Below, piece by piece: positions 4,934 through 50,775 of a stretch of 64,000 nt of DNA. Positions within the stretch are counted from its first letter, which is position 1, and every line of letters starts with the position of its first letter. Origin of the DNA: Phycisphaeraceae bacterium D3-23 (GTDB lineage Bacteria; Planctomycetota; Phycisphaerae; Phycisphaerales; Phycisphaeraceae); assembly GCA_039555135.1 (NCBI GenBank), contig CP114179.1, positions 3,906,001-3,970,000 on the forward strand, read 5' to 3'. The notes below the pieces were generated by a model. It saw only the letters and a list, made by a program, of their open reading frames with translations, searched no databases and had not been told where the DNA came from. A program made the translations under genes and the position numbers.

Positions 4934-5033
4934 GTAGGACAGGCATTCCTGCCTGTCATTCGGCGAAGCCGAAACAGATGCAACGTGATACACAGGCCTT
5001 CGGCCTGGCGACAGGCAGGAATGCCTGTCCTAC
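4934..5033. repeat. Palindromic element with perfect 24-base terminal inverted repeats
   Basis: GTAGGACAGGCATTCCTGCC followed by TGTC (4934-4957) returns as an exact reverse complement at 5010-5033. Each arm is itself nearly palindromic (GACAGGCA / TGCCTGTC). The interior holds two more small hairpins, TTCGGCGAAGCCGAA and AGGCCTTCGGCCT. The whole can fold into a cruciform-like structure. It codes for nothing and sits between ssb and rplI, where rpsR is commonly found. A shorter related hairpin is at 47171-47189. Confidence 0.85.
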
Positions 5034-5716: not shown

Positions 5717-5738
5717 CGGGGCGGCTTCAGCCGCCCCG
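5717..5738. terminator. Bidirectional terminator between rplI and the methyltransferase gene
   Basis: CGGGGCGGC and GCCGCCCCG form a perfect 9-base stem with a TTCA loop, followed on the plus strand by TTCTTT. It can end transcription of rplI. The TGA stop codon of the leftward methyltransferase reading frame lies in the loop, so it may serve both directions. Confidence 0.7.
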
Positions 5739-6576
5739 TTCTTTGCGCGCACAAACCACTTCATACAAAACCGGCGTCCCCGGGATCAAGCGAAACCCCA
5801 CCCGGTCCTCGACCTCAAACCCCATCCCCACAAGCAGTGGCACGTAGTCATAGATCGGGTGCAGCGCACACATGCCAAGCCCCCACCCCGCGAGGTTCAC
5901 CGGCCGGTAGTACGCCGCACGCAGGATGCAGTTCCATTTCGCGCTTTTCGAGATTACTTGGTGTGTCTTGGCTCCCCCTCCCTGCTGGGAGGGAGGGGGC
6001 TGGGGGGAGGGTCGGGCGCTGCCTGCTGAGGTGCGATGGTGTCTAGAGTCTGACTGCCGACCCCCACCCCAGCCCGCGCCCTCCGAGGGGGAGGGAGCCG
6101 GAGTCGGCGTGCTCACTACGTGTTGCACCCGGTCGGCCTGCCGCAAAATCCGCGACCACCATCCGCCCGCCGGGCTTCACGTGCGACGCCGCCATCGCCA
6201 ACACACCGGGCATCGTCGCCACATCGAATACGTTGAAAAAGAAGTGACCGCAGACCCAATCGAACGCCCCTGGACCCTCCGCCGCACGCAGCGGCTGTTC
6301 GGCAATCGTCACCCGCTCCGCCCAGGGCGCAAGCCGCTTGTGCAGCCGACGCGCCATCGCTGCGCACGGCTCCACACACACCGCCTCCGCCCCCGCCGCG
6401 CATGCGAGCGCCACCTCCCGCCCCGTCCCGGCCCCGACATACAGCACCCGGTCCCCCGGCCGCAATCGCCCGACATGCCAGCGCTTCGCCCGCCCGATCG
6501 CCCCCAGCGAATACGCCGACGCCACCGCGTCGTAGCACCATGCAACGTGTTGGTAGTGGCTTGTTGGCGTGTGCAT
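5727..6576 (-). pseudogene. SAM-dependent methyltransferase interrupted by a repeat element
   Basis: The N-terminal part (from the ATG at 6576) reads MHTPTSHYQHVAWCYDAVAS, followed by a class I SAM-binding motif VLYVGAGTGRE and a motif-III-like GGRMVVADFA. The reading frame then runs into a repeat element and stops at 6043. The missing C-terminal portion (KSAKWNCILRAAYYRPVNLA to VVCARKERGG) is encoded on the far side of the element in another frame, ending at 5727. The gene was therefore an ordinary UbiE-like methyltransferase of about 240 residues, now broken by about 130 bases of inserted palindrome. A GTG start at 6609 is an alternative. Substrate is unknown. Confidence 0.75.
5970..6099. 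repeat. Palindromic element (GGCTCCCTCCCCCTC family) inside the methyltransferase gene
   Basis: The plus strand begins GGCTCCCCCTCCCTGCTGGG and ends CTCCGAGGGGGAGGGAGCC. The two arms, each about 45 bases and purine/pyrimidine biased, are imperfect reverse complements around a short unique centre (GCGATGGTGTCTAGAGTC region). It carries in-frame stop codons for the host gene and has no coding potential. Its position inside an otherwise continuous protein family shows that it was inserted there. Confidence 0.8.
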
Positions 6577-6695
6577 CCCGAAACGATACTCCCTCTTCGC
6601 CGGTGACACGGTGTTGTTTCGTGGTCGCCACGAACCGCGGCAAGACCGCTGCTAAGATACTCGGCAACCCGCCTGCCCCCGGACATTCTGGCCCC

Positions 6696-14421: not shown

Positions 14422-14506
14422 TGTTTAACCGACCGCCCAACGGGCGGTGCGGGTCGGGGCGGCTGCCTTGGCTTGACGCGCCGCCCGTTGGGCGGTCGGC
14501 TAAACG
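14422..14506. repeat. Palindromic element, copy 1 (GACCGCCCAACGGGCGG family)
   Basis: The left arm TGTTTAACCGACCGCCCAAC + GGGCGG (14422-14447) matches the reverse complement of the right arm (14481-14506) at 24 of 26 positions. The spacer is 33 bases. A second, diverged copy with the same arm core lies at 16314-16392, on the other side of the intervening gene. Confidence 0.85.
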
Positions 14507-21092: not shown

Positions 21093-21166
<74 letters not shown>

Positions 21167-21178
21167 TCGGGACAGTGC

Positions 21179-26379: not shown

Positions 26380-26397
26380 TATACCTCCCCAAAGGAC

Positions 26398-26473
26398 AGC
26401 CGGCGGCCTATGGACGCCGGACGTTTTTGTTTATCTGGACGCAACAAGTCCGACGTCCGTAGGCCGCCGGCTG
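26398..26473. repeat. Palindromic element (CAGCCGGCGGCCTAYGGACG family)
   Basis: The arm at 26398-26423 and the reverse complement of 26448-26473 agree at 24 of 26 positions (CAGCCGGCGGCCTATGGACG vs CAGCCGGCGGCCTACGGACG at their starts). The spacer is AT-rich (GTTTTTGTTTATC). It lies between the divergent-side start of ctaA and the end of the PilZ gene and has no coding potential. Confidence 0.85.
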
Positions 26474-28110: not shown

Positions 28111-28117
28111 TCTTTGA

Positions 28118-28191
<74 letters not shown>

Positions 28192-32601: not shown

Positions 32602-32715
32602 GTAGGGTGGGAAGAGTGCGTCCGCGAGCGATACATTGCCTTGCGCGGCCAATCGCTTGTTTCATCGCGGTGGGTATCGCTCGTATCGCTCGCGGACTCG
32701 CTCCACCCACCCTAC
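32602..32715. repeat. Palindromic element (GTAGGGTGGG family)
   Basis: The 32-base left arm begins GTAGGGTGGG and ends GTCCGCGAGCGATA. It matches the reverse complement of 32684-32715 at 28 of 32 positions, and a 50-base spacer separates the arms. It starts 4 bases after the orphan gene. Its right end contains the TAG stop codon of mutY. Confidence 0.85.
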
Positions 32716-50307: not shown

Positions 50308-50775
50308 TGATGCGGCTGTGGCGGCCGCGGCTTCGCTTTGGTGAAGACGAGGAAAGTCCGAGCACGACAGGACACGGTGGTGGGTAATACCCACCGGCTG
50401 GCGGGCGACGGCCAAGTCAGGGACAGTGCCACAGAAAACAAACCGCCGGGGGAGGGGCTTGAGGCCTGAGGCCTGCGTGAGGGTAGACGGCCTGCCCCCA
50501 TACGCAAGCCACAAGACCCAGGACTCAAGCCCCTCCCCGGGTAAGGGTGAAAAGGTGCGGTAAGAGCGCACCGGGCGTCGGGCGACCGGCGTCGCTTGGT
50601 AAACCCCACCGCGTGCAAGCCCAAGCAGCCCCAGGGAGCTTTGCTCCCGCCGCCGGTCCGGCGTGGGGCGGGTAGGGTGCTGGAGCCCGTCGGCAACGGC
50701 GGGCCTAGAGAAATGGCCGCACCGCGTCTGGCCTCGGCCCGGCGCGGAACAGAACTCGGCTTATGGGCCGCATCA
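50308..50775 (+). ncRNA. rnpB: RNase P RNA
   Basis: The RNA subunit of RNase P is recognised by its conserved core: GAGGAAAGTCCGAGC (50349-50363), ACAGAAAACAAACCGCC, GGTAAGAGCGCACCGG, TGGTAAACCCCACC, AGAGAAATGG and ACAGAACTCGGCTTAT (50749-50764). The outer stem pairs TGATGCGGC (50308) with the 3' GGCCGCATCA. In the P4 pair GTCCGAG and CTCGG both differ from the usual GTCCGGG/CCCGG in a compensating way, which supports the folding. It processes tRNA 5' ends. Exact ends are estimates to within a few bases. Confidence 0.95.

Follow-up and report, generated by a model that had tools for sequence, protein, structure and literature searches.

What breaks a gene that related species keep whole, and by which route may the breaking element have arrived? 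These questions are raised by a SAM-dependent methyltransferase gene at 5727-6609 on the minus strand of the window, as we call the whole stretch of 64,000 nucleotides analysed (G000:C1:3906001-3970000, from a host genome that forms a single contig of 4.62 Mb). The gene, which adjoins what we take from its reading to be the gene for ribosomal protein L9, is split by about 190 nt (5928-6120).

The N-terminal part, whose codons run on the minus strand to 6121-6123, matches the Methyltransf_25, Methyltransf_12, Methyltransf_23, and Methyltransf_11 models across the full Pfam domain, with the complete Methyltransf_25 domain lying inside it and an alternative ATG start near 6576. From 5927 to 5727, the translation aligns with the C-terminus of methyltransferase homologues, in a frame that differs from that of the upstream part. 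Three genomes of the same genus encode the homologue in a single frame (78% amino acid identity in G002, 57% in G003, and 51% in G001), and the inserted segment is absent from all three, which have a few codons at this point versus 193 nt in the window. The first-pass annotation had described two methyltransferase halves in different frames flanking an element, and both Pfam and the alignment with the intact homologues bear this out; among these three genomes there is neither a shared insertion nor an equally long variable segment. Relative to G002, the net insertion amounts to +187 nt, which is 1 mod 3 and thus shifts the frame, and the element itself contains a TAG stop that is in frame with the N-terminal half. 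The product of the gene is truncated by this frameshift and stop.

The two halves have diverged from G002 to a similar extent (78% amino acid identity and omega 0.17 for the N-terminal half, 77% and 0.22 for the C-terminal one), and by these two measures no clear extra decay of the C-terminal half was found. Since identity and omega are approximately equal on both sides, the insertion is recent relative to the split from G002, and the break in the gene is, as dated by this divergence, recent on the genus scale. The low omega kept by both halves would also suit two separate functional genes, or an element that serves as a neutral linker. However, the homologues of the three sister genomes form one continuous frame without the segment, and the product of the window gene is truncated, so we consider this reading extremely improbable.

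Table 1. Features of the disrupted methyltransferase gene and of the inserted element (window coordinates).
Feature	Position	Strand	Basis
N-terminal part, disrupted SAM methyltransferase	6121..6609	-	Pfam; 78% amino acid identity to the intact G002 homologue
C-terminal part, same methyltransferase, other reading frame (ILRAAYYRPVNLAGWGLGMCALHPIYDY...)	5727..5927	-	Alignment with intact homologues L029-L031; 77% amino acid identity to G002
Inserted segment	5928..6120	.	193 nt between last shared codons; alignment with the intact gene
Left outer arm	5928..5969	.	Degenerate; corresponds to the MITE-like outer inverted repeat of sister copies; alignment with L002, L003, L008, L012, L013
Left REP-like hairpin and G-rich tail, GGCTCCCCCTCCCTGCTGGGAGGGAGGGGGCTGGGGGGAGGGTC	5970..6013	+	One-base difference to the REP beside the DUF559 gene (L018, L070)
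Spacer between the two REPs, 45 nt, partly conserved among copies	6014..6058	.	Multi-copy alignment
Right REP-like hairpin, inverted orientation	6059..6099	-	Multi-copy alignment
Right outer arm (GGAGTCGGCGTGCTCACTACG, continuing into TGTTGCACC)	6100..6120	.	Resembles the ...TCAAAACGTGTTCCGTAT arm of B-type copies; alignment

The REP-like unit of the insert reads CCCTCTCCC-loop-GGGAGAGGG, followed by the tail YYRGGGNGAGGG. Among the copies, the right hairpin takes two forms, CCCTCCCCC/GGGGGAGGG versus CCCTCTCCC/GGGAGAGGG, whose pairing, as read from the alignment, is kept by double changes, and the DNA fold of the element strand reaches z = -4.0 against shuffled sequences. Copies were counted by searches of the 4.62-Mb genome, as the first-pass annotation had proposed, and these returned 27 BLAST hits, corresponding to about 21 paired copies, and 37 matches to a motif pattern whose reversed control had 0. 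Two inverted REPs separated by a short (45-nt) spacer and dispersed in about 21 copies correspond to the definition of a REPIN, and the insert is a REPIN-like unit, that is, a head-to-head REP pair, probably sitting within a decayed MITE-like outer shell. The interruption originally delimited as 5970-6099 coincides exactly with the two-REP core, but the insert as a whole is larger, with about 42 nt to the left of the core and 21 nt to its right. Being a dispersed, multi-copy palindrome in a gene that is intact in sister species, the element is mobile or copied, as first proposed, and represents neither a linker kept by conservation nor a regulatory hairpin of old standing. A target-site duplication at the borders, also suggested at that stage, did not emerge cleanly at the window copy: the only border repeat is TGCA, at 5927-5930 and 6124-6127, which is short, palindromic, and unconvincing, and an excision at these TGCA borders would leave the methyltransferase frame unrestored.

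The same repeat is found in a very different setting elsewhere in the genome, where two REPs face each other around a strong DUF559 gene (C1:2030586-2030900), the only one of its kind in this genome. Nearly all copies of the motif are tandem pairs, with these flanks as the chief exception; the other unpaired motifs are a lone copy at C1:4123375 and a small number of singletons with a diverged partner. The C-terminal tail of the DUF559 open reading frame (L018/L070), PPPSPLPPSREGE, is read from the REP itself, which represents a trap for annotation.

Across 61 genomes of the order, the motif lies within 350 bp of 13 of 30 DUF559 loci, of none of 29 methyltransferase genes, and of none of 30 Y1_Tnp loci, which are flanked by other REPs. 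A motif-free test for inverted flanks in the order scored 19/20 strong DUF559 genes, 0/29 methyltransferases, and 13/30 RAYTs. The inverted palindromes at the DUF559 genes are almost all G-rich, and those at RAYTs are GTAG-type and other REPs unrelated to them; as RAYTs score with their own REPs, the test detects REPtrons in general and they act as its positive control. In a wider set of 80 DUF559 loci, inverted flanks were present in 60 of 79, versus 0 of 75 for distant flanks of the same loci, with about a quarter of the loci having no matching inverted flank. When flanks were swapped between loci, 53 of 300 combinations reached the threshold, because many loci share one palindrome type. Bracketed loci occur in at least five phyla (Planctomycetota, Pseudomonadota, Bacteroidota, Chloroflexota, and Acidobacteriota). 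Those of Caulobacter, Xanthomonas, Sphingomonas, and rhizobia follow the same plan with variations, often including a second hairpin before the GGGTGAGGG end, and the plan also holds for most of the extra DUF559 genes of genomes that have several, as well as for one from S. meliloti. A DUF559 gene of N. gonorrhoeae has G-rich palindromes on both sides, in direct rather than inverted orientation. The palindrome family is, then, specifically associated with DUF559 nuclease genes in many bacteria, and the association is strong. In the open-access subset of the literature, we found no report of an association between DUF559 and palindromic repeats, although it may have been described earlier elsewhere.

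The partner protein belongs to Pfam PF04480 (E 7.5e-33), and its structural model (pLDDT 86) has the PD-(D/E)XK fold of Vsr. Matches of this model include NGO0050 (3hrl; TMt 0.91), which is also found by sequence (E 5e-16), the catalytic domain of the homing endonuclease I-Bth0305I (3r3p; TMt 0.81), and Vsr. Invariant or nearly invariant positions of DUF559 include E28, D57, E68, D70, H74, D81, and R84 in the numbering of this protein.

The Vsr fold invites the interpretation of DUF559 proteins as host mismatch-repair enzymes, with flanking palindromes that are only terminators. This is how Caulobacter VsrA, a DUF559 protein, has been interpreted (PMC12907096), and the palindromes go unmentioned in the text of that paper. 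Terminators, however, would not take the form of a genome-specific dispersed repeat whose inverted copies flank a gene at either end, and inverted palindromes are found at none of the 29 methyltransferase genes whose flanks served for comparison, so that this interpretation appears improbable.

The abundance of the repeat follows DUF559 across genomes. In the 61 genomes, between 0 and 96 exact matches to the motif were counted per genome, with controls near zero, and at least 5 REPs are present in 13 of 17 genomes with a strong DUF559 gene versus 8 of 44 without one (p=3.7e-5, a value that is only a guide, since the genomes are related). The presence of a RAYT shows no relation to repeat abundance in the same genomes (p=0.5). 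The repeat also varies from genome to genome: the variant GGGAGGGGYYGGGGGAGGGTG, which was derived from the sequences flanking DUF559 in G018 and G030, was found in 5 of the 61 genomes, with most copies in G018 (40) and G030 (22). Apart from a single copy in G042, the G046 variant is limited to its own DUF559 flanks, which means that a dispersed family does not accompany every DUF559.

DUF559 could also be a passenger, inserting at REPs as a target or hot spot or simply tolerating them, with the REPs spreading otherwise, for example by means of RAYTs. DUF559 genes are indeed patchily distributed, and several genomes are REP-rich with no DUF559 detected, G013 among them, which is 99% complete and has 52 copies. 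Gene loss is one explanation for the latter; two REP-spaced stretches of G013 inspected by eye (L193, L194) contain no recognised transposase-like frame and read as ordinary host genes. Against a passenger role, the RAYT genes of these genomes come with REPs of another type, and the presence of a RAYT does not track the DUF559-type repeats; moreover, a homing nuclease that targets REPs and is seated between REPs would itself tend to spread them. We therefore regard a passenger role as rather unlikely.

The identity of the palindrome as a RAYT (GTAG) REP was rejected, given that RAYT flanks differ and that RAYT presence does not track copy number; the aligned copies of the element have neither a GTAG nor a GTGG foot. 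The window does contain sequences of that other type. The sequence GTAGGACAGGCATTCCTGCCTGTCGCC at 5005-5031 (minus strand) looks like a GTAG-type REP, and similar sequences flank RAYT genes in this genome (L183, L187). At 32602-32715 there is a head-to-head GTAG-type pair, GTAGGGTGGG...CCCACCCTAC, and a very similar REP flanks a RAYT gene in the sister genome G002 (L182).

That the same repeat brackets a DUF559 gene both here and in many bacteria points to DUF559 as the likely enzyme driving these repeats, a family for which no such engine had been known, and we infer that it acts as a homing-endonuclease-like driver of REP copies. In the mechanism that we propose, this Vsr-fold PD-(D/E)XK nuclease, close to I-Bth0305I, would recognise the palindrome, probably as a hairpin or cruciform, and cut at or beside it. 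Repair from an existing copy would then spread the REP or REPIN units, among which the DUF559 gene, itself bracketed by REPs, would resemble a homing element. At the window locus, the arrival of the element within the methyltransferase gene displaced the reading frame and left a truncated product. The explanation that we favour, and consider fairly likely, is thus a REPIN-like insert that belongs to a DUF559-linked palindrome family with homing-type spread by putative DUF559 cleavage. A wider proposal, to which we give an even chance, would make DUF559 proteins the dedicated mobility enzymes of a widespread G-rich REP-like superfamily in at least five phyla; this would be a second REPtron-like system, independent of RAYTs, in which homing-type cleavage and repair would take the place of HUH strand transfer.

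Movement may also depend on the outer shells. In many copies, the REP pair is itself enclosed by another inverted repeat, which starts with CTAGAGCAACTTGCA in one set and with TNATACGGAACACGTTTTGA in another. The second set shows apparent 3-bp TNA duplications (TTA in L008, TCA in L013), and L295 has a TCA duplication around a single hairpin and no REP pair. In G005, the shell is a 22-bp terminal repeat, GGGTGCATGACACGCGCCGCGG, with 291 ends in the genome. Short forms of 87-99 bp have one hairpin and mostly exact 9-bp target duplications, and the REP pair is present in long forms of about 240-265 bp; since the two forms differ by the segment between two hairpins, they could be related by the insertion of a REPIN at a hairpin or by a deletion between hairpins. 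The loci L309-L338 of G005 illustrate about 145 MITEs with one 22-bp terminal repeat and differing palindromic cores, from which shells and cores seem to exchange.

The window also contains other inverted repeats. A 29-bp inverted pair at 14423-14505, GTTTAACCGACCGCCCAACGGGCGG, forms another MITE-like dimer, with similar CGCCCGTTGGGCG strings close to further copies of the element. Two strong inverted-repeat pairs of 30-31 nt are located at 26397-26473 and 50446-50541, and an inverted repeat of 71 nt, 86% complementary, links 21098-21168 with 28116-28186, about 7 kb apart.

A REPIN inside a MITE could be moved whole by a DDE transposase recognising the outer repeats, and this may be the route into the methyltransferase gene. 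MITE shells with target duplications show that a DDE transposase moved some of the copies, and the window insertion therefore does not require any action of DUF559. In the strict version of this account, the window copy would be no more than a MITE that an ordinary DDE transposase moved in trans, with the REP pair as passive cargo and DUF559 uninvolved. This is quite possible, if short of probable: related copies do have terminal repeats and duplications (22-bp and exact 9-bp ones in several G005 copies, TCA or TTA in the B-type copies of the host), and short MITEs with a single hairpin exist. However, at the window copy only the right arm is B-like, the left one being degenerate, and a clean target duplication is missing; searches of the host genome found no autonomous element sharing the ends of the shell, and a MITE-only account covers the shell and leaves unexplained both the bracketing of DUF559 genes across phyla and the variant matching. 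DDE transposases acting on the outer shell are thus a second, supported route of movement that may explain the window insertion. This route and the DUF559 route, which we continue to favour for the REP family, are compatible and not exclusive.

REP-like palindromes without a GTAG foot have been puzzling, their partner enzyme being missing, as Di Nocera et al. stated in 2013 for CGTC REPs (PMC3733652). DUF559 is now offered as the candidate enzyme for another large REP class, which suggests a role for a common protein family of unknown function and an alternative reading of those DUF559 proteins described as mismatch-repair enzymes. The window gene provides an example, recent on the genus scale, of a host gene broken by such an element.

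Among known systems, the element resembles the REPtron of RAYTs (TnpA_REP) and REPs or REPINs of E. coli, Pseudomonas, and Stenotrophomonas (PMC8266576, PMC6006769) in its short palindromes, its head-to-head pairs with a spacer, its dispersed copies, its partner gene flanked by repeats, and its genome-specific repeat variants. In contrast to that system, it has no GTAG or GTGG foot, its partner is a Vsr-fold nuclease and not an HUH/Y1 protein, and RAYTs of the same genomes come with other REPs. GTAG and CGTC REPs have both been described, and the latter, which lack a dedicated transposase (PMC3733652), are likewise a REP superfamily with head-to-head dimers in multiple phyla; however, they have a CGTC foot, found in none of the aligned copies of the element, and AT-edged stems. 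DUF559 as the missing partner of CGTC REPs found no support, since there is no CGTC palindrome near the 80 DUF559 loci and the Neisseria DUF559 flanks are G-rich. Caulobacter VsrA (CCNA_02930) is also a DUF559 protein, for which there is in vivo evidence that it causes DNA damage, but it was read as a mismatch-repair enzyme and repeats were not considered there (PMC12907096). Bacterial MITEs are comparable in that some copies lie within units of 88-260 bp with terminal repeats and 9-bp or 3-bp duplications, whereas the REP core also occurs with no evident shell (at DUF559 flanks and in numerous copies of G013) and the ends of the window copy are not clean. The Vsr-like homing endonuclease I-Bth0305I has the same fold as DUF559; it is not known to be flanked by palindromic repeats or to spread them. 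NGO0050 of Neisseria gonorrhoeae, of the DUF559 type, is related in both sequence and fold, and a DUF559 gene of this species is bracketed by palindromes, which differ from those described here in being direct and not inverted.
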